NCBI GenBank assembly: GCA_001953215.1
Contig: CP019169.1
Coordinates: 558,001 to 622,000 of the forward strand
Direction of reading: 5' to 3'
Length of the DNA stretch: 64,000 bases
DNA from: Betaproteobacteria bacterium GR16-43
GTDB lineage: Bacteria; Pseudomonadota; Gammaproteobacteria; Burkholderiales; Usitatibacteraceae
The notes under the pieces were generated by a model. That model was not told the DNA's origin. It worked only from the letters and a program-made list of their open reading frames with translations, and did no database searches. Every line of letters begins with the position of its first letter. Positions within the stretch are counted from its first letter, which is position 1. Made by a program: the position numbers and the translations under genes. This document shows positions 1,935-39,524 of the stretch, piece after piece.

Positions 1935-3101
1935 ATGCTCGACCTGCCCACCCTGCTCCTTGCCCTCGTCGCCACGGACCTTGTCCTGGGCGCGACGCTG
2001 GCGATCGGATCGCGCGGGCGCTTCCGCGACGGGGTTCCCTACTGGTTCGGCGCCCTGGGCGCCCGCGTGGCGTCGATCGTCTTCCTGGGGCTCCCCGCGT
2101 CGGCTGGCGATCCGGCCCTCGCCATCGTCGCGGTCACGCTGCTGGCGCTCTCGTACACCCTGCAGGCCGCGGCCCTGCTGCAATTCGGCTCGCGCCGCCT
2201 CCCGGCCTGGGTGCATACCGCCGTGCTGGCGGGCGTGGGCGTGCCCTTCGCGCTGCTCGCAGGCGACACGGGCTCGCGCATCCTCTTCACCGGGTTGGCG
2301 CTCGGCACCGTGATGCTGGTCATCGCGGGCATCGCCACGCAATTGCAGGCGCCGATCAGCCGGGCCACACGGGCGCTTGCCGTCGGCGCGTATGTCGCCG
2401 GCGCAGTGGTGTTCTACGTGCGCGCGGTCGGCTCCGCCTGGGCCGCCGATCCGCTCAAGGCTTTCCTCGAGCCGAGTGCCTTGCAGGCCATCACGCTGAT
2501 GCTGGCCTACATGGCCACGCTCGCGGCCTCGTGCGCCTTCATGCTGCTGCTGAAGGAACGCGGCGATGCGTCCTCCGAGCGGCTGGCCTCGCTCGATTCG
2601 CTCACCGGCGCGTACAACCGCCGCTCCTTCCTCGAGAACGCGGAGCGCACGCTTGCCCTGGCCCTGCGCGCGAACCAGCCCCTGTCGGTGATCATGGTGG
2701 ACATCGACCACTTCCGCCGCATCAACGAGCACCACGGCCAGCGGATCGGCGACGAGGTCCTGCGCAGGCTCGCCGACGTCGTGCGGTCGCAACTGCGCAA
2801 GGAAGACCTCCTGTCGCGTTTCGGAGGTGAAGAGTTCTGCGTCCTGCTGCCGCAAGTGCCCGGCCCGGGCGCCGTGATCGTGGCCGGGCGCATCCGCAAG
2901 GCCGTGTGCGCCGAGCCGATCCGCATCGACGGGCGCGAGATCGAGGTCACCGTGAGCGCGGGCGTGGCCGCGCGGCTGGACGAAGGCCCGGAGAGCATCG
3001 ACGCCATCCTCGGCCGCGCCGACCAGGCGATGTCGCTCGCCAAGAACCGCGGCCGCAACCGCGTCGTGGCGCTCTCGCTCGGACGGTCCGTAGCCGCGTA
3101 A
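1935..3101 (+). CDS. Membrane-bound diguanylate cyclase (GGDEF)
   Basis: The 388-residue protein has an N-terminal region of about 205 residues with six or seven hydrophobic segments, then a GGDEF domain (about 215-380). The active-site loop is GGEEF at 297-301, a functional variant. The metal-site Asp is in VDIDHF, and RKED at 288-291 sits five residues before the loop, matching the RxxD product-inhibition site. It should make c-di-GMP at the inner membrane in response to an unidentified signal sensed by the membrane region, which I cannot assign to a named MASE family. There is no EAL domain. Confidence 0.88.
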   Translation: MLDLPTLLLALVATDLVLGATLAIGSRGRFRDGVPYWFGALGARVASIVFLGLPASAGDPALAIVAVTLLALSYTLQAAALLQFGSRRLPAWVHTAVLAGVGVPFALLAGDTGSRILFTGLALGTVMLVIAGIATQLQAPISRATRALAVGAYVAGAVVFYVRAVGSAWAADPLKAFLEPSALQAITLMLAYMATLAASCAFMLLLKERGDASSERLASLDSLTGAYNRRSFLENAERTLALALRANQPLSVIMVDIDHFRRINEHHGQRIGDEVLRRLADVVRSQLRKEDLLSRFGGEEFCVLLPQVPGPGAVIVAGRIRKAVCAEPIRIDGREIEVTVSAGVAARLDEGPESIDAILGRADQAMSLAKNRGRNRVVALSLGRSVAA

Positions 3102-3110
3102 AATCGCGGC

Positions 3111-3755
3111 ATGCAACTCCTCTACATCGCCGATCCCCTCTGCTCCTGGTGCTATGGCTTCGGCCCGGAGCTCGACAAACTCCTGGCCGCGCATCCCGAA
3201 GCGAAGGTCGACCTCGTGATGGGCGGCCTGCGCGCGTTCAACACCGAGCCGGTGAGCCCCGCCTTCGTCGACATGCTGCGCGGCCACTGGAAGCACGTGG
3301 CCGACGCGAGCGGGCTGCCGCTCTCAGATTCGCTGATCTCGACGCCGGGCTTCGTCTACGACACCGAGCCGCCCTGCCGCGCGGTGGTCACGGCGCGCAC
3401 GATCGACGCCACGAAAGCCCTGCCGCTGCTGAAGGCCGTGCAATCGGCGTTCTATCGCGACGGGCGTGACGTCACGAAAGCCGAGGTCGTCGCCGATCTC
3501 GCCGCCTCCGTGGGCTACGACCGCGCGGCCTTCCTCGAGAAATTCGACGGCTCCGAGATGCGCGACGAGACGCGCCTCGATTTCAGCACCGCGCAGACGC
3601 TGGGCGTCACGGGCTTTCCTACGCTTGGCATCGCGTACGGCCAGCAGCTCTATCTCGTGACCTCGGGCTACGTGACGGCCGACGTGCTCGAGCAGCGGCT
3701 CGCGGAGATCGATCGGCTTTCGCGCGAGCGCGCGGTGGCCAATCCCGCCGCCTGA
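3111..3755 (+). CDS. Cytoplasmic DsbA-family thioredoxin-like oxidoreductase
   Basis: This 214-residue protein has a thioredoxin fold of the DsbA/FrnE type: it opens with MQLLYIADPLCSWCYGF, with a CSWC redox motif at residues 11-14, then an alpha-helical insertion and a cis-Pro-like segment (GVTGFPTLGI). There is no signal peptide, so it is probably cytosolic. FrnE-like proteins act as disulfide isomerases in oxidative stress and others are chromene-carboxylate isomerases; the CxxC favours a redox role. It starts 9 bp after the diguanylate cyclase gene. Confidence 0.85.
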   Translation: MQLLYIADPLCSWCYGFGPELDKLLAAHPEAKVDLVMGGLRAFNTEPVSPAFVDMLRGHWKHVADASGLPLSDSLISTPGFVYDTEPPCRAVVTARTIDATKALPLLKAVQSAFYRDGRDVTKAEVVADLAASVGYDRAAFLEKFDGSEMRDETRLDFSTAQTLGVTGFPTLGIAYGQQLYLVTSGYVTADVLEQRLAEIDRLSRERAVANPAA

Positions 3756-3862
3756 GCCTGCCGGTAACAAGGCTTGGGAGGCGGCTTCGTGAGCTGATCT
3801 CGCCGCCGCGCTACGATAGCCCTTCGCCGGCCGTTCGAGCCGGCCTCCCGGAGGAGAACCCC

Positions 3863-4657
3863 ATGACCCAGAACCGCCGCGATTTCCTCAACGCCGGCGC
3901 CGCGATCGGCGCCGCCACCGTCGCCGCGTGCGCGGCGCCCGGCACGACGACCGCGCAGTCCGGCAAGATCCTGTTCGCCCAGAAGCCCGTGCTCGTTCCG
4001 GTGATGGGATCGGACGAGCATTTCCAGGTGCGCCGCATCTACTGCGTCGGCCGCAACTACGCCGCGCACGCCCGCGAGATGGGCTCCGATCCGACGCGCG
4101 AGCCGCCGTTCTTCTTCCAGAAGCCGACGGATGCGATCCAAGTGGTCGCGCCCGGACAGACCGTCGACCATCCGTATCCGCCGATCACGAAGAATTACCA
4201 CTACGAGATCGAGCTGGTCGCGGTGCTGAAGGGCGGCGGGCGCAACATCCCGGCCGACAAGGCACTGGACATCGTCTATGGCTACGCCACGGGCCTCGAC
4301 ATGACCCGGCGCGACCTGCAGCGGGCGATGGGCGACCAGAAGAAGCCGTGGGAAGTGGGCAAGAGCTTCGACCAGTCCGCGGTCATCACGCACATCTACC
4401 CCGCGACCCAGGTCGGCCACCTCGACAAGGGCGCCATCTGGCTCAAGGTGAACGGGCAGGTGAAGCAGAACGCGAACCTGAACCAGATGACGTGGAACGT
4501 GGCCGAGCAGATCGCCAACCTCTCGACGTTCTACGAGCTCTTCGCCGGAGACATCATCTACACCGGCACGCCGGAGAACGTGGGCCCGGTGGTGAAGGGC
4601 GACCTCATGACCGGCCACATCGACGGGCTCTACGACCTGAACGCGAAGGTGGTGTGA
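3863..4657 (+). CDS. Fumarylacetoacetate-hydrolase-family protein with a Tat/lipoprotein signal
   Basis: The 264-residue protein carries the FAH fold core from about residue 50: VGRNYAAHAREMG, the metal ligands in HYEIELVAVLKGG, TGLDMTRRDLQ and a C-terminal GDIIYTGTPENVG loop. Relatives act on acylpyruvates or 2-hydroxy-hepta-2,4-diene-1,7-dioates in the cytoplasm. Unusually, this copy starts with NRRDFL and a hydrophobic stretch ending VAAC, a twin-arginine signal with a lipobox-like Cys. It is preceded by a GGAGGAG ribosome site and overlaps the following S41-like gene by 4 bp. Confidence 0.85.
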   Translation: MTQNRRDFLNAGAAIGAATVAACAAPGTTTAQSGKILFAQKPVLVPVMGSDEHFQVRRIYCVGRNYAAHAREMGSDPTREPPFFFQKPTDAIQVVAPGQTVDHPYPPITKNYHYEIELVAVLKGGGRNIPADKALDIVYGYATGLDMTRRDLQRAMGDQKKPWEVGKSFDQSAVITHIYPATQVGHLDKGAIWLKVNGQVKQNANLNQMTWNVAEQIANLSTFYELFAGDIIYTGTPENVGPVVKGDLMTGHIDGLYDLNAKVV

Positions 4658-5877
4658 TCCTGCGCCTGGCCGCAACGCTGCTGCTGTCCTGCGGGCTCGC
4701 CTTCGGCGAGCCCGTTTCGTTTACGGCGCCGCAGCGCGCACAGGATTTCGATGCGATGGCCCGCGCGGTGGAGAAGGACTACGTCTATCTCGCTTCGCGC
4801 GACGGTTGGCGCCGCTCCCGGGAGGCGTGGCGGAAGAAGGCGCTGGCCGCGACGACACCACTCGCTTTCGCGCTCGCCCTCGAAGGCGCGTTGCGCGAGC
4901 TTCGCGACGACCACGTCTTCCTCCGCGTCCAGGGCTTCACGCTCGAGCGCCGCGTTCCCGCCGGTACCGACGTGTGGGCGAGCTGGACGGGGTCGCGCGC
5001 CACCATCGACGCAGTGCGTCCGTCGAGCGTCGCCGATGTGGCGGGCCTCCACCCCGGGCAGCAGATCGTGTCCGTGCAGGGCGTGCCGGTCGAGCGTGTC
5101 GTTCGCGAGTTGGTTGGCGGTTCCGCGAACCCCGCCGCGCGCGACTGGGCGTTGCGGCACGTGATGGCGGGCCCGCGCGACGGCAGCTACTTCGTCGGCG
5201 TGCGCGAGGAAGGCAGCGATGCGCGGCCGCGGCAGTACGAAGTCGTTCGCACGGCCGTGCCCGAGGGCAACGGCACACCGCTACTCGCACGCAAGATCGG
5301 CGAAGCGCGCGACATCGCCTATATCCGACTGCGGAACAACTTGGGCGACGAAGGCGTGGTGATGCACTTCGACGCGGCGCTGCAGCAGATGCGCGAGACG
5401 CGCGCGATGATCCTCGACCTGCGCAGTACGGAATCGGGCGGATCGGAAGCCGTGGTGCGCGCGATCCTCGGTCGCTTCGTCGAGAAGGAATCGCCATGGC
5501 AGGTTCGCGAGGGTCGGGGAAAGGCCCGCACGACCGATGTCGTTGCGCCGCGCGGCCCGTTCGCATTTCGCGGCCCGCTCGTGGTGCTGGTCGATCGCTG
5601 GACTGCGGCCGAAGGTGAAGCGCTCGCGGCCGGCCTCGATGCCGTGGCCAACGCAACGCTCGTGGGCACGTCGATGGCCGGGCTGCGGGGCGTGCGTCGC
5701 GAAGTGACGCTGCCCCAAACCGGATGGGTGGTCGCCTTCCCCGCGGAGCGTGCGCTCCACGTGAACGGCAAATCGCGCGAGTCACTGCGGCCCGATGTCG
5801 AGGTCGATCTCGTGCACCCTTCGGGCGGCCCCGGCGACCCCATCCTCTACCAGGGCCTCAAGCACCTCACGAAATAA
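4654..5877 (+). CDS. Exported S41-family (C-terminal processing peptidase-like) protein, possibly inactive
   Basis: The GTG start at 4654 overlaps the previous stop (GTGA) and gives 407 residues with a signal peptide (MILRLAATLLLSCGLAFG). A PDZ-like segment (ATIDAVRPSSVADVAGLHPG) precedes an S41 core with ILDLRSTESGG and PLVVLVDRW. Where active relatives have a nucleophilic Ser (SAAE or TGSMGE types), this protein reads RWTAAEGEA near residue 315, so the nucleophile seems to be absent. The gene ends inside the hairpin repeat at 5873-5996, which contains its stop codon. Confidence 0.78.
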   Translation: MILRLAATLLLSCGLAFGEPVSFTAPQRAQDFDAMARAVEKDYVYLASRDGWRRSREAWRKKALAATTPLAFALALEGALRELRDDHVFLRVQGFTLERRVPAGTDVWASWTGSRATIDAVRPSSVADVAGLHPGQQIVSVQGVPVERVVRELVGGSANPAARDWALRHVMAGPRDGSYFVGVREEGSDARPRQYEVVRTAVPEGNGTPLLARKIGEARDIAYIRLRNNLGDEGVVMHFDAALQQMRETRAMILDLRSTESGGSEAVVRAILGRFVEKESPWQVREGRGKARTTDVVAPRGPFAFRGPLVVLVDRWTAAEGEALAAGLDAVANATLVGTSMAGLRGVRREVTLPQTGWVVAFPAERALHVNGKSRESLRPDVEVDLVHPSGGPGDPILYQGLKHLTK

Positions 5878-5996
5878 TTGGGGTCAGACTCCCATTAAGT
5901 TCGAAATCGGGGTCAGGGTAGAAATATCGCCCCGCGGCGATGGCCGCGAAAGATATTTCTACCCTGACCCCGATTTCGAGTCTGACCCCAATTATT
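5873..5996. repeat. Interspersed hairpin repeat, copy 1 (long form)
   Basis: This is a nested palindrome between convergent genes. The outer arms 5873-5891 and 5978-5996 match perfectly over 19 bp, and the inner arms 5903-5928 and 5952-5977 match perfectly over 26 bp. The core GGGGTCAGGGTAGAAATAT recurs in copy 2 at 8285-8336. The stops of both flanking genes (TAA 5875-5877 and, on the minus strand, 5992-5994) lie inside it. It resembles REP/BIME-like elements mobilised in trans by RAYT transposases, and could also act as a bidirectional terminator. Confidence 0.85.
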
Positions 5997-6396
5997 TTTT
6001 GATCTTGGCCTGGACGCGTTGGTCGAAGCGCTCGACGTTGACGACGACGCGCTCGTGCGTGCCTTCGCCGATGAGCTCGCGCTCGTCGTCGCAGCGGACC
6101 TTGAAGTAGATGGTGCGGCCCTCGACCTTCAGCACTTCCGCGGTGGCGCGGACCTTCATGCCGACGGGCGTGGCGGCGACGTGCGTCACGTCGAGGTGGG
6201 TGCCCAGGCTCTGGTGATGCTCGGGGAGCGACTGCTCCACCGCGGCCAGCGCGGCAGCCTCGATCAAGTTGATCATCACCGGCGTGGCGAGGACGCGGAT
6301 GCGCCCGCTGCCGATGCGCGGCGCGGTGTGCTGTTCGCCGACGAGGAGTTCGGCGGTGCCGGTCAGTCCGGCGGGCAAGTGGAGTTCGAGGGGCAT
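5992..6396 (-). CDS. Hotdog-fold thioesterase family protein (FlK-like)
   Basis: Starting at the Met at 6396 gives 134 residues; an in-frame Met at 6441 would add 15 but leaves only 18 bp to divergent mnmC. The hotdog pattern is clear: VLATPVMINLIEAAALAAVE, then LGTHLDVTHVAATPVG. This places the Thr, Glu and His in the positions used as a catalytic set by fluoroacetyl-CoA thioesterase FlK. It probably hydrolyses a small acyl-CoA in the cytosol; the substrate is unknown. Its stop codon is supplied by the hairpin repeat. Confidence 0.8.
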   Translation of the reverse strand: MPLELHLPAGLTGTAELLVGEQHTAPRIGSGRIRVLATPVMINLIEAAALAAVEQSLPEHHQSLGTHLDVTHVAATPVGMKVRATAEVLKVEGRTIYFKVRCDDERELIGEGTHERVVVNVERFDQRVQAKIKK

Positions 6397-6459
6397 GCGA
6401 TGGCGTTCCGGTGTGAAGCGCCATTCTGACAGAATGCGCATTCACATCGCGCCGCCCCC

Positions 6460-8280
6460 ATGCCCGTCTCCGTCCCCAACGCACGCATCACGTTCACCGT
6501 CCACGGCGCGCCGTATTCCGAAGCCGTGGGCGATGTATACCATTCCGTCGCTGGAGGCCTCGAGCAGGCGCGGCAGGTCTTCCTCGCCGGGAACGGGCTG
6601 CCCGAGCGCTGGCGTGGCCGCGATTCCTTTGTGATCCTCGAGACCGGCTTCGGCACCGGCCTGAATTTCCTCGCGACGTGGGACGCGATGCGCGCGGATC
6701 CGCAAAGGCCGAAGCGCGTGCACTTCGTCTCCGTCGAAAGGGAACCGCTCGCGCGCGAGGACCTGCGTCGCGTGCTCGAGCCGTTGACCGAAGTTGCGCC
6801 GCTCGCGCACGCGCTGATCGAAGCGTGGCCTCCGCCCGTCGCGGGCTTCCATCGCATCCACTTCGACAACGGCCAGGTGATCCTCACGTTGCTCCAGGGC
6901 GATGCGATCGCCCTCTTGCCGCAACTCGTGGCGCAAGTGGACGCCTTCTTCCTCGACGGCTTCACGCCCGCGCGCAACCCCGCGATCTGGTCGCCCGAAG
7001 TCGTGCGCGAGCTCGCGCGTCTTGCGGCGCCGGGTGCTACGCTTTCCACATGGACCGTCGCGGGCGGCGTTCGCGGCGCGCTCACCGATGCGGGCTTTCT
7101 CGTCGAGAAGCGCGCGGGATTCGCGTTCAAGCGCGAGAGCCTGGGCGGAACGTGGCATGTTCCGGCGCAGGCGCCCTCGTCGATCGCGCGCAGGGCCGTA
7201 GTCATCGGTGCAGGGCTCGCGGGAACCGCATGCGCGGAGCGTCTCGGCGTTCGTGGCTGGGATGTCGCGCTCGTCGATGGCCGCGACGCAGGCTCCAGCG
7301 GTGCCGTGGGTCTCGTGCGCCCGATCGCGAACCTGCGGGATGCGACCAACGCGCAACTCTCGCGCAGTGCATTCCTTTACGCGCTGCAGCACTACGGCAC
7401 GCTGCAGACGGATGGTTATCACCTGCAATGGGATCGCTGCGGCGTGCTGCAACTCGCGGGCGACGACGACGAGGCCCGGCGCTTCGCGGCGATCGCACAG
7501 TCGCAGCACTACCCGCTCGAGCTCCTCACGTTCGTGGGCCGCGATCGTGCGTGCGAGATCGCCGGACGCGACGTGCCACAGCCGGGGTGGTGGTTCCCGC
7601 GCGGCTCCTGGGTCTCGCTGCCCAGCCTCGCGATCGCCGCCCTCGCGCGCGTGGGTCCGCGCGTCACGAAGTCCCTGGGCCGCAGGGTCGAGCGCATCGA
7701 ACGCGAGGGCGCGGCCTGGCGCGCCCTCGATGCGAGCGGTCGCGTGATCGCCGAGGCGCCGGTGATGATCCTCGCGAACGCGGCCGATGCGAAGAGACTC
7801 GCACCCGACGCGCGTCTCTCCTTGAGTTCCGTGCGTGGCCAACTCACGTACGTGCCGGCGGACCCGTCGCGCAGCCTCGGCGTGATCGTCTCGGGCAATG
7901 GCTACGTCGCCCCACTTCCCGACGGCGGCCACTGCGTCGGCGCGACCTACCAGCATGACGACGCCGATGTCTCCGTTCGCGCGTCCGACCATCGCCACAA
8001 TCTCGATCGCGCGGAGACGATGCTGCCGGGATTCACGGCGGGCGTTCATCCGATGAACCTCGCGGGCTGGACGGGATTTCGCGCGACGGTACCCGATCGC
8101 CTCCCCATCTTCGGTGCATGCGCCGCGCCGGGGTTGTATGCGGCGACCGGGCTCGGCTCTCGTGGACTGCTCTGGTCGCCCCTCGGCGCCGAGCTTCTCG
8201 CCTCGATGCTCGAAGGCGAACCCTTGCCGCTGCCCCGCGACCTCGCGGGCGCCATCTCGCCGCGCCGCTTCCTCTCGTAA
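6460..8280 (+). CDS. mnmC: Bifunctional tRNA mnm5s2U34 methyltransferase / FAD-dependent demodification enzyme
   Basis: The 606-residue protein matches MnmC in two-domain order. The N-terminal SAM-dependent methyltransferase half (MnmD) has ILETGFGTGLNFL and the FLDGFTPARNPAIWS motif. The C-terminal FAD oxidoreductase half has AVVIGAGLAGTACAERL near residue 245 and a terminal GLGSRGL segment. The enzyme converts cmnm5s2U to nm5s2U and then mnm5s2U at the tRNA wobble position. Length is slightly below E. coli MnmC (668). It is divergent from the thioesterase gene and ends just before repeat copy 2. Confidence 0.93.
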   Translation: MPVSVPNARITFTVHGAPYSEAVGDVYHSVAGGLEQARQVFLAGNGLPERWRGRDSFVILETGFGTGLNFLATWDAMRADPQRPKRVHFVSVEREPLAREDLRRVLEPLTEVAPLAHALIEAWPPPVAGFHRIHFDNGQVILTLLQGDAIALLPQLVAQVDAFFLDGFTPARNPAIWSPEVVRELARLAAPGATLSTWTVAGGVRGALTDAGFLVEKRAGFAFKRESLGGTWHVPAQAPSSIARRAVVIGAGLAGTACAERLGVRGWDVALVDGRDAGSSGAVGLVRPIANLRDATNAQLSRSAFLYALQHYGTLQTDGYHLQWDRCGVLQLAGDDDEARRFAAIAQSQHYPLELLTFVGRDRACEIAGRDVPQPGWWFPRGSWVSLPSLAIAALARVGPRVTKSLGRRVERIEREGAAWRALDASGRVIAEAPVMILANAADAKRLAPDARLSLSSVRGQLTYVPADPSRSLGVIVSGNGYVAPLPDGGHCVGATYQHDDADVSVRASDHRHNLDRAETMLPGFTAGVHPMNLAGWTGFRATVPDRLPIFGACAAPGLYAATGLGSRGLLWSPLGAELLASMLEGEPLPLPRDLAGAISPRRFLS

Positions 8281-8284
8281 GACG

Positions 8285-8336
8285 AAATCGGGGTCAGGGT
8301 AGAAATATCTAAATATTTCTACCCTGACCCCGATTA
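8285..8336. repeat. Interspersed hairpin repeat, copy 2 (short form)
   Basis: Arms 8286-8308 and 8313-8335 are perfect 23-bp inverted repeats around a 4-nt loop and share the GGGGTCAGGGTAGAAATAT core with copy 1 at 5873. As in copy 1, the element lies between convergent genes and provides the minus-strand gene's stop (8334-8336). The outer GGGGTCAGACTC arms of copy 1 are missing. Confidence 0.85.
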
Positions 8337-8615
8337 TTTCTTTTCGACGCCCCGGAGGGCGTAGGAGAGGCCGGTGAGCACGATCCAGCCGGCCGCGGCC
8401 ACGGCGAGAATGGTCGTACGGTTTGGAAGGTCTTCCATCATGAAGGTCCACACGCCGGCCACGAAGCAGAGGGATCCCGCCACGCCGAGCAGGTTGGTCT
8501 TCGCATCGAAGGCGAGCGCCTTCTTGCAATGCGGGCAGAGGAACGCGTTGTACCAGCGGCCGATGGGATTGGCGCTCACGACGCCGCTGCAATGGGGACA
8601 TTTCAACGCGGGCAT
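8334..8615 (-). CDS. Small zinc-ribbon membrane protein
   Basis: This 93-residue protein has two CPHC pairs about 20 residues apart (CPHCSG and CPHCKK) forming a zinc ribbon at the N terminus, followed by two hydrophobic segments (LLGVAGSLCFVAGVWTF and ILAVAAAGWIVLTGLSYAL) and a basic C terminus. I do not recognise a named family. The architecture suggests an inner-membrane protein with a cytosolic zinc ribbon. An AGGT ribosome site precedes the ATG. The stop codon lies in repeat copy 2. Confidence 0.75.
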   Translation of the reverse strand: MPALKCPHCSGVVSANPIGRWYNAFLCPHCKKALAFDAKTNLLGVAGSLCFVAGVWTFMMEDLPNRTTILAVAAAGWIVLTGLSYALRGVEKK

Positions 8616-8781
8616 GTTTTGACCTAGTTTCGCTCTATTTTAGGGTTGGCGGACTGGAAAACCGCCAGAGTTGTCCACATCTTGTTCGACTGAAAGCATT
8701 TGCCGCGCACTCGGCCGAACGGATGCCTAGAATAGCCTTCCGGCGCCGCAGTCCCACCCCGTCCGGTTTTCAGCGAGCCCC

Positions 8782-14546
<5,765 letters not shown>

Positions 14547-32310: not shown

Positions 32311-33435
32311 CTAGCGCTGGAGGTTCGAGGGCTCCGCATCCGGCAGGGTGTGCCCCTGCACCGATTCGCGCGTGAAGGCCGCGCGCAATGCGTCGAGCGA
32401 ATGGCGCGGGCCGTGCGGGTGGTCCATCCAGCGTTCCCAGGCGACGACAACGCGGTGCCCACGGCTCGCGACCTTCTGCCGCGCCATGGCGCCCAGGTGC
32501 CAGAAGCGCCGGCCCGCTGCGTTCGCGCGAAGGGCGCGAAAGCCCGGAACGACTTCCCGTTCGATCAACGCGATCCAGCGATCGCGCGTGCGCTGGACGC
32601 CGAACTCCGCCGCGCGCTCAAGGCCGTTGGCGACCAATGCGCGGTACAGGGCCCGGTCGCGCCGCAAGCTGTCGACGGCTCGCAGCACGTCGCCGGGCCC
32701 ACGCACTTCGATGAAATCCAGCGGAGAACGGCGCTGCTCGAGGTAGGCCGGCTCTGGCATGGCGAGCAGCGGCACGCCCGCGTGCCACGCGTTGTACAGC
32801 TTGGTCGCGGGCTTGGTCGCGAGGACGCGCGGCGACTCGTTGCGCGCCGCGAGCGCGAGGTCCACGTCGCGGTAGTTTTCCCAACCGGTGGCATGGGCCT
32901 CGAACGCGACGCCTCGCGCAGCCAGGTCCCGAAGGAACGTTTTCGAACCAAACCATTCGGGCGCCGAACCGAGGCGGCCGTGATAGGCCAGGTTGCGAAT
33001 GGCCGAGCCCCGCGATGCATCGCGCGGCAGCAGGCCGGGCTGCGGCCACAAGGGCACGAAGCGCTCGTGCGGTGCGGCATCGAGTCCGTTCTGCACGATC
33101 GCGAGGTCGCACGCATGCACGGGCGCGCGGTCCGCGCGCACGATCACCAGGAATGCATCGGCGGCCCGGCTGGCGAAGCCGTTCGCATCATCGCGATGCG
33201 CAATGCAGATGGCGCCGGGCACGAAGCGATCGGACAAGCCGACCTCGTAGCCCCGCTCGCGCAGTGCGGGGGCGAGCCGCACGTACGATTGCGCGATCCA
33301 CGAGTTGCGGCCGCCGACAAAGCGCTGGGGCTGGCTCGCGATGTCACATTCGCCGAGCCGCTCCAGGTCGGGCCAGTCCCGCGTGCGATTACGCAGGACG
33401 AAAACAATGCGGACGCTTTTCTGTATTTCTTGCAT
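32311..33435 (-). CDS. Glycosyltransferase-like protein
   Basis: This 374-residue protein lacks membrane segments. It has two Rossmann-like halves; the second has AIRNLAYHGRLG, then KLYNAWHAGVPLLAMPEPAYLE, which looks like the nucleotide-sugar site of GT-B enzymes (E/P-rich loop followed by GVP). I cannot assign a numbered family with certainty. It is a lone gene, with no sugar-nucleotide or polysaccharide genes nearby, so the acceptor is unknown. Confidence 0.6.
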   Translation of the reverse strand: MQEIQKSVRIVFVLRNRTRDWPDLERLGECDIASQPQRFVGGRNSWIAQSYVRLAPALRERGYEVGLSDRFVPGAICIAHRDDANGFASRAADAFLVIVRADRAPVHACDLAIVQNGLDAAPHERFVPLWPQPGLLPRDASRGSAIRNLAYHGRLGSAPEWFGSKTFLRDLAARGVAFEAHATGWENYRDVDLALAARNESPRVLATKPATKLYNAWHAGVPLLAMPEPAYLEQRRSPLDFIEVRGPGDVLRAVDSLRRDRALYRALVANGLERAAEFGVQRTRDRWIALIEREVVPGFRALRANAAGRRFWHLGAMARQKVASRGHRVVVAWERWMDHPHGPRHSLDALRAAFTRESVQGHTLPDAEPSNLQR

Positions 33436-33615: not shown

Positions 33616-33744
33616 TCAGTTCTTCTTGATCGTCTCCAGCATCTTGAAGATCGTGCGCGACGAGCCGATGAAAAGACGCTTGAAAGTCTTCGGCAGGCAG
33701 CGGCGCTCGAGGGTGTTGCGGCGCACTCGCTTACGTTCGGCCAT
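33616..33744 (-). CDS. Small very basic protein (42 residues)
   Basis: The product (MAERKRVRRNTLERRCLPKT, then a more hydrophobic FKRLFIGSSRTIF segment and KKN end) has about a dozen Lys/Arg and almost no acidic residues. GGAG lies 9 nt before the ATG, a perfect TATAAT sits 33 nt upstream, and a strong terminator follows, so it looks like an independent transcription unit. I do not recognise the family; binding to RNA or to the ribosome is only a guess from charge. Confidence 0.7.
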   Translation of the reverse strand: MAERKRVRRNTLERRCLPKTFKRLFIGSSRTIFKMLETIKKN

Positions 33745-33785: not shown

Positions 33786-35792
33786 TCAATTCAACAACCT
33801 GACATTCCCATCGACGATCTCGGCCCGGATGCGCGAGCCGTCCTGGCGCACCATGTCGCCCCTCGCTTTCACGAGTCCGTTTTCGAAGGCGCCTTCGAAA
33901 CGCGTGCCGTCCGCGAACCAGAAGACCCCGAGGCCCTGCGGGCGGCCTTCGGCCATCTCGCCTTCGTACTTGAGCCCGCTCGCGTGGAAATAGGTGCCCT
34001 TGCCGGTGAGCGCGCCACCTCGGATGTCGCCTTCATAGCGGTCGCCGTTCGAGAACGTGTAGATGCCCTGGCCTTCCGGTTTCCCATTCTGGAACGAGCC
34101 CTGGATGACGTCGCCACCCTTCGCGATGTAGCGGCCCTTGCCGTTCATCTTGCCCTGCGCCATTTCGCCTTCGTAGCGATCGCCGCTCTTGAAGCGGTAG
34201 ACGCCCGTGCCGTGGGGCTTGCCATCGACGAACGAGCCGTCGAACGTATCGCCGTCCTTCGTGACCGAAGTGCCGCGCCCGACGATGATGCCGGCTTTCA
34301 CGTCGCCTTCGTACGTGTCGCCCGAAGCGAACAGGTACTTGCCCTTGCCGCTCGGCCGGTCGTTCGCGAAGTCGCCTTCGTAGCGATCGCCGTTTTCCCA
34401 AACGTACACGCCCGGACCATCCTTCAGGCCTTCCTTGAATTCGCCCTGGTACTGGAAGGCCTTCGAGGTGTATTCGCCCTTGCCGTGCAGCGAGAGGCCG
34501 CGCATGCCGCCGCGATAGATGGAACCGTCGGCGAACGTAAGTTCGCGCACACCGGGAGAGATCTCGCGTCCCGGGAGGTCGTCGCGCTTCGCCGGTGCCG
34601 CGGGTGGCGCTGCGGCTGCCGCTGCGGGTGCCGCAGCCGCAGGCGGTTGCAATGGGGGCTTGGGGGCTGCCGGCGCAGGTCCTGCGGGCGCGGAAGTGAC
34701 CGGCACCGCGGTCGCTGCCGGTCGTGATGTCGTGGGTGCACTGGCGACGACCGTGGCCTTTTCCTCGGGCTTCGCCGGCGGCGTCGATACGGACTGCGGT
34801 TCCGGCTTCGCGTCGCCACGCGTGACGGGGTTCTGGGAAGCGGGTGGCGCCTCCGCGGTACTCGCGACTCGCGTGGGGCGCAGCAGTGCCTCGATGCGAT
34901 TCTTCGCGAGCGGAGCGAAGCTGCCGTTCGGATACTTGTCGAGATAGGCCCGCACGTCTTCCACGCGAGTCGAATCGCGCACGCTGACCCAGAACTCGCG
35001 CTCGATCTGCGCTTGCGTATCCGCACTCGGTCCCGAGACGGATTGCCCCGGCGTCGCGGGACGGGCGGTGGACGCGTTGAACAGGAAATCCCCCTTGAGC
35101 GAGGACGAGTCCCACGGGGTCTGCAGCTTGCGCGTCTCCTGTTCCACCGCCTCGCGCACGCGCTTGAACATGATCTCCACCGGCTGGTCCGGCGTGCGGA
35201 TGTTCTGGAGGAGGTACTTCGTGTAGACGCCGTTGCGCCCGAAGCCGTCGGCGGCCACCGAACCCGGTGAAGTCGCGTAGGCGATCAGCGTGCCGGAAGG
35301 CGCGCTCATCTGCGCGAGGCCCGCACTCGTCACCTTGAAGCTGGATGCGAAAGGATTGTCGCGGCATGCATCCAGGATGAGGAAGTTGAATCGCGTCTTC
35401 GCGCGGTCCATCCGGTCGAAGACCTGGTTGATCTCGACCGAGAAGAACGTCACGTCTTCCTCGCTGCCCATGGCGGCGTCGATCGGGATGAGGTAGTTGC
35501 GGTCCTTGAACTGCATCGCATGGCCGGCGTAGAAGAAGAGCGCCGTGTTGGCGCCTTCGAGCGCCGCGCCGAATTCGCGGATGCCCTCGATCATGTCGCG
35601 CCGCGTGACGTTCTCCTTCACGATCACCTTGAAGCCCAGCTCTTTCAGGACTTCACCCAGGTCGCGCGCGTCGTTCGTGGCGTTGCGCAGTTGTGCGGAG
35701 GCGTAGTTGTTGTTCCCGATGAGCAGCGCGACGCGGTCGGCTGCATGGGAGCCGAAGGCGAAGAATGCGAGAAGGACGATCGCGACGCGCAT
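33786..35792 (-). CDS. Secreted caspase-fold (C14) protease with MORN repeats
   Basis: The 668-residue protein has a signal peptide (MRVAIVLLAFFAFGSHAADR). Residues about 20-245 form a caspase/metacaspase p20-like domain with RVALLIGNNNY, catalytic His91 in FFYAGHAMQ and Cys143 in LILDACRDNPF. A Pro/Ala-rich linker (about 300-405) leads to about ten 23-residue MORN repeats (YEGDFANDRPSGKGKYLF and similar, about 425-650). The repeats probably bind lipids or proteins at the cell surface or periplasm. It is the last gene after two FecR-domain genes and a cyclase gene, with a 3-bp gap. Confidence 0.9.
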   Translation of the reverse strand: MRVAIVLLAFFAFGSHAADRVALLIGNNNYASAQLRNATNDARDLGEVLKELGFKVIVKENVTRRDMIEGIREFGAALEGANTALFFYAGHAMQFKDRNYLIPIDAAMGSEEDVTFFSVEINQVFDRMDRAKTRFNFLILDACRDNPFASSFKVTSAGLAQMSAPSGTLIAYATSPGSVAADGFGRNGVYTKYLLQNIRTPDQPVEIMFKRVREAVEQETRKLQTPWDSSSLKGDFLFNASTARPATPGQSVSGPSADTQAQIEREFWVSVRDSTRVEDVRAYLDKYPNGSFAPLAKNRIEALLRPTRVASTAEAPPASQNPVTRGDAKPEPQSVSTPPAKPEEKATVVASAPTTSRPAATAVPVTSAPAGPAPAAPKPPLQPPAAAAPAAAAAAPPAAPAKRDDLPGREISPGVRELTFADGSIYRGGMRGLSLHGKGEYTSKAFQYQGEFKEGLKDGPGVYVWENGDRYEGDFANDRPSGKGKYLFASGDTYEGDVKAGIIVGRGTSVTKDGDTFDGSFVDGKPHGTGVYRFKSGDRYEGEMAQGKMNGKGRYIAKGGDVIQGSFQNGKPEGQGIYTFSNGDRYEGDIRGGALTGKGTYFHASGLKYEGEMAEGRPQGLGVFWFADGTRFEGAFENGLVKARGDMVRQDGSRIRAEIVDGNVRLLN

Positions 35793-35795
35793 GGA

Positions 35796-36626
35796 TCAGC
35801 GAGCGAGCACGGCGAGTTCGGGAAGGTCCGGGCGCTCGCGGGCAAGCGACGCCCAGGCGAGGCGCGCGTCCTGGGTGGCGCCGAGGTCCTGGAGCACGAA
35901 TGCGTGCAGGACGCGGTCGGCGAAGGTCTTCGTCCTGTTGCGCGACGCTTCCGCTCGCATGATCGCGGCAACCGGCATCGTCTCGAAGGTCGCAGTGCCG
36001 AGGACCCCTGAATCGGAGGAGAGCGTCCAGCTATAGCGCCTTCCAATGTCGAATTTCATCCCCGCCTCCAACGACTGGCTCTTCGACGATCCGCGCCAGA
36101 TAAACTTGCCATCGGAGCTGTGGACGACCACGGTGAAACCCGAAGGTCCGCTTTCCGCATCCCACGCGAACGTTGGATGCAATGTCGCGATCGGGCCGGC
36201 TTGCGGATAGAGCAACACGGGCCGCGCGGGTTTCTGCAACGAGATGCTGCGCATGCGCACGCTCGCCGTGACGGCCTCGGCGTTGCGCTGCACGAGGACG
36301 GCGCTGGGCGCGGACACGGCGTCACGGCGCGAAGGCGGGGTTCCCCTCACCACTTTCGCTTCGGCGGCCTCGACGATGAATTCCCCCGGACCCTGGAGCG
36401 TGAATTCCACGCCGGTAGCGGTATAGACCAGGACGGCGCGGGCACCCTTGCCCAGCGTGATGGGCGTCGCCGTATCCACCGTGGAGAGCATGCCGAGCTT
36501 TGCGCCATTCGCAGCGCGAGCTTCGCCCCGTACGTCGGCCACGAAGGCGACAGGCGCGCCTAGCGCAACCGTGGCAAGAAGGGAGAGGACCGCGGCGGAG
36601 GTGGCGAGATGTCGGACGAGGGCCAC
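35796..36626 (-). CDS. Exported FecR-domain protein (paralogue 2)
   Basis: The GTG at 36626 gives 276 residues with a signal peptide (HLATSAAVLSLLATVALGAP). The FecR-like domain follows (ATPITLGKGARAVLV, then VEFTLQGPGEFIVEA), and after it a fibronectin-like segment (VLLYPQAGPIATLHPTFAWD) and a helical C-terminal repeat. It is a clear paralogue of the upstream gene product: both share SVRMRSI, the ATLHPTF/ATLQPTF strand and the LQDLGA C-terminal helix. The role is likely periplasmic binding or scaffolding. It lies 11 bp after its paralogue. Confidence 0.8.
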   Translation of the reverse strand: MALVRHLATSAAVLSLLATVALGAPVAFVADVRGEARAANGAKLGMLSTVDTATPITLGKGARAVLVYTATGVEFTLQGPGEFIVEAAEAKVVRGTPPSRRDAVSAPSAVLVQRNAEAVTASVRMRSISLQKPARPVLLYPQAGPIATLHPTFAWDAESGPSGFTVVVHSSDGKFIWRGSSKSQSLEAGMKFDIGRRYSWTLSSDSGVLGTATFETMPVAAIMRAEASRNRTKTFADRVLHAFVLQDLGATQDARLAWASLARERPDLPELAVLAR

Positions 36627-36637
36627 GGGCAGTGCGG

Positions 36638-37462
36638 CTATTTTCCCGCGAGGGTCGCGAGCTCGGGCAGGTCGGCTCGCTCCTTCGCGAGCTTCGACCA
36701 TTGCTCCTGCGCCTCCTGCGACGCGCCGAGGTCCTGGAGCATCAGCGCGTACATCACGCGGTCGGAGAACTCCGCGCGCTCGGACGGCTTGCGTTTTTCC
36801 GCGACCTGGATGGCTTCGGAAGGCAGTGTGCGAAACCGGGCGGAGCCCAACTCGCTGCCCGCGATGCGCACGACCCAGGCGTACTCCGTGTCGGGTTTCA
36901 GCTTCGCGGGAACGCGATAGGAATTGCCGACTGCCTTGCCCGCGTGCACGGCCTTTTCCTCGCCCACGACGGAGAGCGTGATCTCCGCCGGCGCGGTGGC
37001 CGTCCAGCGGAATGTCGGTTGCAGCGTGGCGATGTTGCCTTGGGTCGGGAAGACGAGAGGCGACACGGCCTTCGGCGGCGCAATGGAGCGCATGCGCACG
37101 CTGGCCGCGGAAGTCTGGCCCACCTGGCCGAGGACCCTCGCGTTGGCCCGCCATTCCGTTGCGCGTGCCGTCGGCGCGGGACCGCTTCCAGCTCCGACCT
37201 CGGATTCGTTCACGACGAACTCGCCGGGTCCGCGAAGGGGATACTCCTTGCCGCTCGCGATGAACATCACCGAAGCCTGCGCGTCCTTGGCAACCACGAC
37301 CTTCTGGCCGCGGGCGAGTTCGGAAAGCAGGCGCGCCTTGGATCCGTCGACCGTCACCTCACCCTTGAGGTTGGTCAGGAACGCCACGCTCTCAGCGGGA
37401 AACGCCGCCAGGGATGCAAGCGAACCCAGGATGGCCAGTGCGCGCTGGATCGTCTTTTTCAT
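36638..37462 (-). CDS. Exported FecR-domain protein (paralogue 1)
   Basis: The ATG with GGAGGTCGAC upstream gives 274 residues with a signal peptide (MKKTIQRALAILGSLASLAA). The FecR-type beta domain (GQKVVVAKDAQASVMFI, YPLRGPGEFVVNESEV) is followed by SVRMRSIAPPKA, a beta-sandwich segment (GNIATLQPTFRWTA) and a C-terminal helix pair (LMLQDLGASQEAQEQWSKLA). FecR domains usually sense or anchor in the periplasm; there is no sigma factor here, so it is not a classical FecI/FecR pair. It starts 14 bp after the cyclase gene stop. Confidence 0.82.
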   Translation of the reverse strand: MKKTIQRALAILGSLASLAAFPAESVAFLTNLKGEVTVDGSKARLLSELARGQKVVVAKDAQASVMFIASGKEYPLRGPGEFVVNESEVGAGSGPAPTARATEWRANARVLGQVGQTSAASVRMRSIAPPKAVSPLVFPTQGNIATLQPTFRWTATAPAEITLSVVGEEKAVHAGKAVGNSYRVPAKLKPDTEYAWVVRIAGSELGSARFRTLPSEAIQVAEKRKPSERAEFSDRVMYALMLQDLGASQEAQEQWSKLAKERADLPELATLAGK

Positions 37463-37476
37463 GTCGACCTCCGCTG

Positions 37477-39288
37477 TCATTTCTCCGTCGGCGTGGCGCG
37501 CGCCGTACGGATGCCCCAAACCATGACCGGGCTGTGACCCTTGAGCTTGTGCTCGCCCAGTGGATCGAAGTGGAAGCGTTCCCCGATCCTGCTCACGACG
37601 GACTCGGTGATCACGATCTTGCGACCGAGCTCCTTTGTGAGTCCTTCCACCCGGGCCGCGACATTGACCGCATCGCCGATCGCCGAGTAATTGTGCCGCT
37701 CCGATGAACCGATATTTCCCACCGTGACGGTCCCATAGTTTACGCCGATTCCAATGGTCAACGTCGGCAGGCCCTCGCGTTCGAACTCGATGTTCAGGGC
37801 GTCGAGTTCCGACATCATCTCGAGCGCGCACTGCACCGCATCCACGCACGGGTCCGCGGATTTGAACGGCGCACCGAAGAAGACCATCAAGCCATCGCCG
37901 ATGAACTTGTCGACGGTGCCATCCAGCTTGTGCACCGCGCTCACCATGCGGTCGAAGTAGCGCTGCAGCACATTGGTGACGATCTGCGGCGACATTTTCT
38001 CGGAGAGAGCGGTGAAATCCCTTACGTCGCTGAAGAGTACGCAGATGTCGGCGAGCTTGGCACCCGCGCCGAAGTCGAGATGCCCCTGCAGCATTTCGCG
38101 CATGACCGCGGGGCTCACCTGGCCGGCAAATGTGCGTAGCATCTGGATGCGCGCGAGGACCGCCTTGATGGCGTCGTACACGCCGCGCACACCCAGGGCG
38201 ATCCAGAAGGTGAGCGTGATCGCGGCGATAGGGACCAGGACTTGGAGCTGGCGGATGGCCATCAGGCTTAACGCGAGCAGCGCCAGCGGAAACAGCACCG
38301 CCCCGGCCACGATCACCCAGGGACGCGCGCGCACGAGCACCGCAAGCGCCGCGATGGCGCAGAGGAGGATGGCGAGCCATTCGGGCGCGGGCGAGAGCAT
38401 GCCGTGCGACAGATGGCTGCGTAGAACCTGCAAGTGAGTCGCCACGCCGGGCTGGCTGAATTTTGCGCCGGGCGCTTCGACGCGGTGCATGTCTTCGGGA
38501 AGCTGGATCACCTTCACCGGCAGGAACCAGCGGTCACGGTCACCCGTCATGCTTCCGAGCAGCACGATGCGCCCCGCGAAGCGCTCGCGCAGGCGCTGCT
38601 CGTCACCGGCGTCGAACCAGGCCTCCACCTCGTGCATCGGGATGTGGCGCACTGGTGGCCCGCCGACGCTGTAGTCGATGTACCCCTCGCCCACATTCCG
38701 GTTGAGCTGGCGCAGCATCTGGCCCGCGAGCGTCGGCACCGGTGCGCCGCCTTCGTAGCGCAACGCCTCGGCGAAGCGGCGCGACACGCCGTCGGGATCC
38801 TGCAACTGGCGATCCACCCCGAGATTTTCGGGCTTCACGATGCGCAGGAAATTCTCCTGCACGGGAATCAACTCGTCGCGATCGCTCACGTGCTGCACGA
38901 ACACCAGCGGTGCTTCGCGCTTGAGCGCGAAGATCCCGATCATCATCGGCCCGTCGCCGTCGAAGCCCGGCACGATCTTGTCAAAGGATCGCTCGGGCAA
39001 GCCGATGTCGACGCCCACCGCGAGCGGCTTGGCGATTGCCAGCGCGCGATAGACTTTGCCGAAGTGCTTGTGCCAAAGCGCGATCGGTTCGGGGAAGGCC
39101 GATTCGGTGTCGATATCGGTGCCGATGAGCACGACGTCGTTGTCCAGCGGCCGCGGAAAGCGATCCCGGAGGAAGCGCATCTGCGCGTCGAACGCGAGGC
39201 GTTCGGCGCCTGCGAACGCGGACTCGATCGGCTTCGGGGCGAGGCCCCCCGCGGCCGCGAGGACCAGGACGAAGGCGTACAGGAACAC
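37477..39288 (-). CDS. CHASE2-domain membrane adenylate cyclase
   Basis: From the GTG at 39288 the protein has 603 residues: a membrane segment at the N terminus, a periplasmic CHASE2 sensor (about 30-300), three membrane helices (about 304-365) and a class III cyclase domain (about 405-590). Catalytic residues are present: metal Asp421 (FSDVRDF) and Asp465 (GDGLM), adenine-selecting Lys461 and Asp539, and Asn542/Arg546 (VNVAAR). It should make cAMP. The frame is open upstream to 39384, where ATC follows GGAG and would add a basic cytosolic tail, so the start is uncertain. It heads the operon with two FecR-like genes and the caspase/MORN gene. Confidence 0.9.
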   Translation of the reverse strand: MFLYAFVLVLAAAGGLAPKPIESAFAGAERLAFDAQMRFLRDRFPRPLDNDVVLIGTDIDTESAFPEPIALWHKHFGKVYRALAIAKPLAVGVDIGLPERSFDKIVPGFDGDGPMMIGIFALKREAPLVFVQHVSDRDELIPVQENFLRIVKPENLGVDRQLQDPDGVSRRFAEALRYEGGAPVPTLAGQMLRQLNRNVGEGYIDYSVGGPPVRHIPMHEVEAWFDAGDEQRLRERFAGRIVLLGSMTGDRDRWFLPVKVIQLPEDMHRVEAPGAKFSQPGVATHLQVLRSHLSHGMLSPAPEWLAILLCAIAALAVLVRARPWVIVAGAVLFPLALLALSLMAIRQLQVLVPIAAITLTFWIALGVRGVYDAIKAVLARIQMLRTFAGQVSPAVMREMLQGHLDFGAGAKLADICVLFSDVRDFTALSEKMSPQIVTNVLQRYFDRMVSAVHKLDGTVDKFIGDGLMVFFGAPFKSADPCVDAVQCALEMMSELDALNIEFEREGLPTLTIGIGVNYGTVTVGNIGSSERHNYSAIGDAVNVAARVEGLTKELGRKIVITESVVSRIGERFHFDPLGEHKLKGHSPVMVWGIRTARATPTEK

Positions 39289-39511: not shown

Positions 39512-39524
39512 GACTTTGTAGCAC

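Follow-up and report, generated by a model that had tools for sequence, protein, structure and literature searches.

What would a caspase-fold protease be doing beside the gene of a receptor predicted to make cyclic AMP (cAMP)? The question is raised by four close-packed genes in a 64,000-nucleotide stretch of Betaproteobacteria bacterium GR16-43 (CP019169.1, positions 558,001 to 622,000), referred to here as the window. All on the minus strand, they encode a CHASE2/class III cyclase, two paralogous proteins and a caspase-fold protein with MORN repeats, with gaps of 14, 11 and 3 bp between them (Table 1). Both the genes and the gaps agree with a first-pass annotation made from the letters of this DNA, and on the evidence of the sequence the four-gene operon is real. 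It is located downstream of a 16S-Ile-Ala-23S-5S operon whose 5S gene ends at 39524, and a promoter scan found no sigma-70-like site ahead of the cyclase gene. The reading that we favour, with a probability of roughly 45%, is that the operon encodes a periplasm-to-cytoplasm cAMP signalling module with a paracaspase-like protease in the periplasm, which perhaps cuts an MtxA-like partner of the receptor; the direction, substrate and signal of the module are what we infer.

Receptor, partners and protease

The first gene product combines a CHASE2 domain (Pfam E 1.2e-17) and a Guanylate_cyc domain (E 3.8e-26) in one protein, and its best relatives in the PDB are adenylate cyclases. Residues D421, K461, D465, D539, N542 and R546, which correspond to the metal, adenine and transition-state residues of class III cyclases, are present in the window protein and kept in all 17 aligned operon copies. 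The adenylate-cyclase site is thus complete by alignment and the enzyme is predicted to be intact at its active site, as the first-pass annotation had it when describing an envelope sensor with an intact cyclase site.

The last gene product matches Peptidase_C14 (Pfam E 2.7e-40) and MORN (E 1.2e-44, with six stretches passing alone). All 18 aligned rows, 17 from operons and one from L052, this genome's second caspase, have H91, C143, D41 and D141 unchanged, and the invariance of the dyad, already noted as intact in the first pass, holds at identities down to 44%. By its profile match and its His-Cys dyad, the protein belongs to the paracaspase/orthocaspase class of Peptidase C14; D41 and D141 presumably belong to the substrate pocket, as in MALT1. 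A structural model (mean predicted local distance difference test score, pLDDT, 77; predicted template modelling score, pTM, 0.41) orders the chain as caspase domain, helical stretch at 257–304, low-confidence Pro/Ala-rich linker at 306–403 and 11 MORN β-hairpins. A loose pattern counted from residue 400 gives about eleven units spaced 22–23 amino acids apart, so that the array seen in the first pass stands and its count of about ten rises slightly. Among solved structures, Foldseek ranks MORN1 proteins of protozoa nearest (E 2.6e-22), together with the MALT1 paracaspase (1.5e-15), which the caspase domain as a single sequence also matches (phmmer, 4.3e-14). MALT1, the closest solved caspase domain, is an animal signalling protein, cytoplasmic and equipped with death and Ig domains, whereas the window protein has a signal-like N-terminus and MORN repeats. 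No 19-residue stretch of the protein exceeds the hydropathy cut-off; its export, like that of the two paralogues, was judged by eye from N-terminal letters and hydropathy. Orthocaspases cleave after positively charged residues (PMC6426788). MORN repeats have been re-evaluated as dimerisation or oligomerisation modules, and TbMORN1 did not bind membranes, yet it bound individual phospholipids (PMC7725318), which makes the lipid tether imagined in the first pass doubtful.

The two paralogues in between had been taken for exported FecR-domain proteins. Their paralogy and apparent export hold up, but the FecR label does not: Pfam FecR (PF04773) matches none of 28 aligned partner proteins at E<=0.1, and DUF928 is matched weakly by two of the 28, at best with E 0.019. 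With a mean pLDDT of 89.7, the model of partner 1, for which 25 related sequences were used, is a confident one and comprises a β-domain at 27–93, a helix at 108–124, an FN3/Ig sandwich at about 134–213 and helical hairpins at 215–271. Its best PDB match by Foldseek is MtxA of Magnetospirillum (4z29; E 3.6e-5, template modelling score 0.51 by target length). By VIA, 4z29 aligns over residues 134..274 of partner 1 (Z 9.1, root-mean-square deviation 3.6, 134 residues); in the other 49 of 50 VIA rows, which are mostly FN3, the alignment is no longer than 84 residues, and several of them tie with 4z29 in Z. MtxA itself has a signal peptide with Ig-like and TPR-like domains, and mtxA is followed by a CHASE2/adenylate cyclase gene (PMC4439547). 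Partner 1 shares the architecture of an FN3/Ig domain followed by TPR-like helices in its model, and the partner gene adjoins a CHASE2-adenylate cyclase gene as in the mtxA cluster. Searched against PDB sequences, the partner profile gave no MtxA match up to E 1 and one weak match, to an engineered FN3. Fold, architecture and gene partner agree, and we call the partners MtxA-like; they are so by modelled fold, and by Pfam they are not FecR.

The absence of a sigma factor from the operon, remarked on in the first pass, needs no explanation once the partners are MtxA-like rather than FecR proteins. We rejected surface signalling of the FecR type, with an anti-sigma protein and a TonB receptor, given that there is no FecR match and no sigma factor among the window neighbours tested. 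What speaks for it is an N-terminal β-domain that looks FecR-like by eye and, in one relative (G002, L033), a sigma-70-family gene of DUF6596 type upstream of the operon, at 5276-6730 (-) between 5S rRNA and operon and on the strand opposite to the operon. Against it stand the 0 of 28 matches, the rRNA genes upstream of the window operon, the downstream genes tested, which include no sigma factor, and a partner whose hydrophobic stretch comes too early in the chain for a cytoplasmic anti-sigma domain to precede it. No linked sigma factor or TonB receptor lies beside the window operon, and the G002 gene is the one sigma-70-family gene among the loci looked at, the neighbours of the other loci not having been scanned for these families. 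Of all the explanations considered, we regard this one as the least probable.

Table 1. Features of the operon and its immediate surroundings, in window coordinates.
Feature	Coordinates	Strand	Basis or remark
CHASE2 receptor adenylate cyclase, 603 aa, GTG start	37477..39288	-	Pfam; PDB relatives
CHASE2 sensor domain, residues 13-316	38341..39252	-	predicted periplasmic, flanked by hydrophobic stretches at the N-terminus and at about 297-370
Class III cyclase domain, residues 413-592	37513..38052	-	Pfam and alignment
MtxA-like partner 1, 274 aa, apparently exported	36638-37462	-	model, Foldseek
KRKP loop codons, partner 1 residues 223-226, candidate protease site	36785..36796	-	inference
MtxA-like partner 2, 276 aa, GTG start, apparently exported	35796-36626	-	paralogue of partner 1
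Caspase/MORN protein, 668 aa, short signal-like N-terminus	33786-35792	-	Pfam, model, alignment
Paracaspase-like caspase domain, residues 20-240, with H91 and C143	35073..35735	-	Pfam, alignment, structure matches
MORN repeats, residues 409-666	33795..34568	-	Pfam, model
Small open reading frame (ORF), 42 aa, basic	33616-33744	-	follows the caspase/MORN gene

The small ORF is kept at 76–93% identity in nine relatives and has no Pfam or NCBIfam match. A promoter-like site ahead of it (33805-33777) overlaps the end of the caspase gene and is weak, with one such site found against 0.6 expected in shuffled sequence. Further on, a 374-aa protein without a Pfam match (window 32311-33435, minus strand) adjoins the operon in G002 and G004 among the loci searched.

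Conservation and recurrence of the gene neighbourhood

Partner 1 has a match in 21 of 100 genomes searched, 18 among the 28 of the organism's own family (its own genome included) and three in other families of the order; for own-family genomes at least 90% complete the count is 8 of 13. The cyclase, partner and caspase genes keep the same order and strand in all 18 family genomes with partner 1. MORN repeats are visible in 16 of these operons, the other two ending at contig borders, and in two loci (L043 and L046) the cyclase gene is cut by the contig, leaving no full cyclase. The unit thus occurs in 17 further genomes, and the co-occurrence whose absence elsewhere was to have told against the first-pass annotation is there; its conservation is well supported by these alignments and gene orders. 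One of the copies (L046, from the metagenome-assembled genome, MAG, G026) has in-frame stops in its caspase and cyclase genes, by decay or assembly error, and was excluded from both alignments.

Across the family the operon occupies two kinds of location. Nine of the 18 operons have 5S rRNA upstream, nine have pepN downstream and ten the small ORF. The seven genomes of genus g2 show no 5S rRNA, pepN or small ORF in view, have one partner gene, and encode caspase domains 43–47% identical to that of the window. The first possible starts overlap the upstream stops by 4 bp in L035, L037, L038 and L040. Just downstream of the operon in L042 (genus g4) is a gene for an FlK-type thioesterase, and by eye a gene of similar sequence occurs in L049 (g2).

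Caspase-fold genes also recur at loci other than the operon. Ten non-operon matches of partner 1 were picked by similarity, regardless of proteases, and seven of them (L050, L053, L054, L055, L057, L059 and L060) cluster with a TPR-CHAT gene, adjacent or one or two genes apart; two more (L056 and L058) are cut by contig ends. In the organism's own genome, L053 has the order divergent Crp regulator, CHASE2-cyclase, MtxA-like gene, TPR-CHAT, and at L052 a C14 protein gene is divergent from a CHASE2-Ser/Thr kinase gene; this genome has four C14/CHAT genes, and all but one of them (L127) share a cluster with a CHASE2 gene. The CHAT-linked cyclases of L050 and L053 carry Asn in place of K461. A genome of another family (G094, L121) combines a CHASE2-cyclase, an MtxA-like gene (5e-22, by the local profile alone) and a different class of C14 protein, which carries DUF4384 and, by eye, a signal-like N-terminus. 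Two Rhodoferax MAG loci have the cyclase/MtxA-like pair, and one of them (L075) has a CHAT gene upstream, which Pfam found and the local CHAT profile missed. A class-wide search added G263 (L158), with the pair, its partner gene spread over two frames, and a TPR gene truncated at the contig end, and G462 (L162), with a cyclase and a weak partner match; three other genomes gave weak matches only. Beside the MtxA-like/CHASE2-cyclase pair of L058 (G010) we also noted an RCC1/FG-GAP/fn3 protein (2741-5731).

Counted from the protease side, a CHASE2 gene is present in 6 of 55 non-operon C14 loci, which cover all 62 places (expected 0.74, P 9e-5), and in 12 of 33 CHAT loci (expected 0.51, P 2e-14); outside the family the CHAT figure is 6 of 19 (expected 0.20, P 2e-8). 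The null is at least 265 CHASE2 matches in 339.5 Mb, by rounded genome sizes. CHASE2 near proteases was detected by local iterated profiles with flattering E-values, and all ten of the ten hits checked were confirmed by Pfam CHASE2. CHAT scored above the cut-off at 45 places, of which the 33 CHAT loci contain 35 and C14 loci three, with seven outside the count.

Other combinations appeared in these loci. ShlB-type transporter genes occur in 8 of the 33 CHAT loci, and CHASE2, CHAT and ShlB-type genes share L134, L135, L137, L141, L142 and L050, from several families, as a CHASE2/CHAT/two-partner-secretion neighbourhood; the CHASE2 proteins of these six are cyclase fusions except that of L134, whose gene is cut by the contig. 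Huge frames in L109 (G042, 2352-8771) and L112 (G043, 7947-13811) match both Pfam C14 and a local TpsA profile and adjoin ShlB-type transporter and protein kinase genes, the caspase domain apparently lying within a secreted exoprotein. At L103 (G052, 46-1725 and 2448-3263), a TIR-CHASE2 fusion (Pfam) and a C14 gene are separated by less than 1 kb.

An unrooted tree of 32 CHASE2-cyclase rows, drawn without L043 and L046 and with L075 and L076 entered as 'unknown', sets the 16 C14/MORN operon copies on one side of a branch (100/99). CHAT-linked rows, of which there are 11, fall on both sides, with three changes needed, and L121 is grouped with L059, itself CHAT-linked (99/99); some joins were flagged as unsafe, and here and there long branches come together. 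On the simple reading of this tree, the class of protease beside the receptor would have been exchanged or recruited more than once. The tree also bears on the possibility that mere chance or descent, and not function, keeps the genes together; in its favour, all family cyclase copies lie on one side of a branch. Yet the genes stay together despite caspase divergence to 43–47% identity and a differing site. Ten family genomes are without partner 1; seven of them also lack any C14 match, as would be expected if the unit is gained or lost in one piece, and the other three (G001, G022 and G027) have other C14 genes. Chance neighbourhood, which we consider very improbable, was rejected on the order kept across the family, the caspase-fold genes of the sister clusters and the tree.

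A protease that may set the state of a receptor

The signalling module that we propose would work as follows. An inner-membrane CHASE2 receptor is accompanied by one or two apparently exported MtxA-like proteins, which may contact it as periplasmic co-receptors. The protease would reside in the same periplasmic compartment, gathered through its MORN repeats as a dimerising repeat, and would cut after Arg or Lys. Cutting of the MtxA-like partner, with KR[KR]P as the candidate loop, or of an incoming basic protein could then set the state of the receptor, and the resulting cAMP would be read by Crp-type regulators encoded elsewhere; the genome has 20 cyclic-nucleotide-monophosphate (cNMP)-binding stretches, and no cNMP-binding domain is among the Pfam matches of the operon proteins. 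CHAT proteins would fill the corresponding place in sister loci.

The candidate loop comes from partner 1, where two basic residues occur at 224–225 in all 18 operons and at 223–224 in 17 of 18, mostly as KR[KR]P. In the model the loop lies between two helices after the FN3 domain, and it is the only conserved dibasic in the protein, the next best place reaching 7 of 18. In partner 2 no dibasic occurs at this position in any of nine copies, although one copy has such a pair at another place in the wider stretch compared. Among 16 other MtxA-like rows with residues at this position, R/K-P is kept in nine, and three have a dibasic at some other place in that stretch. The prediction of the loop as a cleavage site was made after seeing the sequences.

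In favour of the module we count the gene order and strand kept across the family, the 4-bp overlaps, the invariant dyad, the fold match to MtxA and the cyclase gene that follows mtxA, the CHAT and C14 genes of related clusters, the CHASE2 counts around these proteases, the dibasic loop and the cNMP-binding stretches of the genome. Several observations weigh against the signalling module. Gene neighbourhood does not prove contact. The dibasic loop belongs to one clade, and R/K-P is common there (the 9 of 16 other rows), so that the loop may be structural. Partner 2 is absent from nine of the 18 operons and present in the other nine; 10 of 28 family genomes, and 5 of 13 at 90% completeness or more, are without the unit. 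One MtxA-like gene, the tenth of the non-operon matches (L051), is accompanied by neither a cyclase nor a caspase-fold gene. The class-wide search yielded partner-type matches in 8 of 370 genomes (own genome included, by local profiles and eye), and among these G291 (L157) has the cyclase/partner pair with no caspase-fold gene in view, while G304 (L159) has a ShlB-type gene with no cyclase or caspase in view. The six C14 loci with CHASE2 consist of four own-family CHASE2-kinase loci (genes up to about 5 kb apart), one TIR-CHASE2 fusion and the G094 cyclase, and outside the family the count falls to 2 of 31 (expected 0.30, P 0.035); because loci are related by descent, this and the other P values overstate independence and are indicative only. 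Deletion of mtxA, finally, gave no phenotype in standard culture (PMC4439547).

The most serious competitor, which we hold to be appreciably less probable than the signalling module, is that the protease is output only: an effector, co-expressed with the receptor, that degrades proteins outside the inner membrane without touching receptor signalling. The signal-like N-terminus and the repeats would suit such a role, and PMC4933709, which lists MORN-metacaspase architectures, speculates that betaproteobacterial metacaspases degrade extracellular protein. A mere effector, however, need not stay beside the receptor gene, and the sister loci have another caspase-fold class, CHAT, in the same cluster.

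A broader claim appears unlikely to us as a whole, namely that the MtxA-like/CHASE2-cyclase pair is repeatedly joined to a periplasmic caspase-fold protease (paracaspase-MORN, a second C14 class or TPR-CHAT), which cuts the co-receptor after the dibasic loop, KR[KR]P in the C14/MORN form, or cuts a basic protein from lysed cells, and so leads to cAMP. Less probable again is a scaffold, in which the caspase fold with MORN or TPR-CHAT forms a non-catalytic platform that binds the MtxA-like partner or an exported protein. Both types have repeat arrays, and MORN is a protein–protein module (PMC7725318), but a pure scaffold would have no need of H91 and C143, which are unchanged in all 18 rows.

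It is highly improbable that the operon is a cyclic-nucleotide anti-phage or cell-death system, Pycsar-like with a caspase effector or a relative of EACC1-type conflict systems. PADLOC models do match (PycC E 7.4e-27, caspase 3.5e-14), and TRADD-N/EACC1-type systems can combine caspases with a variable gene that can carry CHASE2 (PMC8195603). The NCBIfam model caspase_w_EACC1 (NF047832) also matches, at 56.8 bits against a curated cut-off of 140, which is not reached. The PycC match, however, is limited to the cyclase domain, common to class III cyclases, the receptor cyclase has a periplasmic sensor and the protease is apparently exported, and one family branch retains the operon next to rrn and pepN. 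With the match confined to the cyclase domain and no cNMP-binding domain, as a gated effector would have, among the operon's Pfam matches, we rejected Pycsar-type defence.

Known relatives and what the unit may mean

The closest described system is the Magnetospirillum mtxA/CHASE2-adenylate cyclase cluster, which like the window operon has an exported Ig-like/TPR-like partner beside the CHASE2 cyclase gene, and unlike it has no caspase-fold protease mentioned in the available text (PMC4439547). Sinorhizobium meliloti uses the CHASE2 cyclase receptors CyaD1, CyaD2 and CyaK with the Crp-type reader Clr, SMc02177/SMc02178 and NsrA, a layout of receptor and reader as proposed here (PMC5498481, PMC7529298, PMC13001267). 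One of its clustered non-cytoplasmic proteins has a FecR domain, which the window partners do not match, and its receptor NsrA is in the outer membrane; the available text of the three sources mentions no caspase or MORN. The cascade has the basic protein uL2 as a candidate signal (PMC7529298) and sets a precedent for CHASE2 cyclases that have non-cytoplasmic proteins clustered with them and a basic protein as possible signal.

Other likenesses are partial. The Burkholderia BiofilmReg operon (response regulator, LysM/FecR protein, CHASE2 histidine kinase) also joins a CHASE2 receptor to an exported partner, but its output is a kinase and the source text at hand describes no protease (PMC5192318). 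A Trichodesmium fusion brings caspase and CHASE2 into one signalling context, though as a single protein with a caspase predicted to be cytoplasmic and, in the portions available, no cyclase (PMC3501461, PMC2853523). The cyanobacterial CHASE2–DUF928–WD40 cluster places a CHASE2 sensor beside a DUF928 gene, which recalls the weak DUF928 matches of the partners; its available description mentions no caspase or cyclase (PMC5587647). Within the accessible literature on CHASE2 and caspases, no CHASE2 cyclase with an exported caspase is described, and searches on CHAT domain with CHASE2, CHAT domain with two-partner secretion, FecR with adenylate cyclase and caspase, and CHASE2 with MORN found nothing. 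The first-pass remark that it knew of no such system stands for the whole combination in the literature searched, and fails for the CHASE2-cyclase/MtxA pair, which is in print (PMC4439547). That pair is known and barely studied; the caspase is its new third part. Overall the earlier interpretation is partly supported, and the unit proves wider and better grounded than a first reading of the sequence could know.

Genes standing side by side in this way suggest that the cutting of envelope proteins is wired to the internal messenger cAMP. What CHASE2 domains sense was stated in 2016 to be unknown (PMC5192318). The unit ties CHASE2 sensing to the function of bacterial caspase homologues, and makes both testable in one system with a candidate substrate and a candidate site. 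If the protease gates the receptor, a bacterial caspase-fold enzyme would be acting outside the cytoplasm in second-messenger signalling, and not in cell death.

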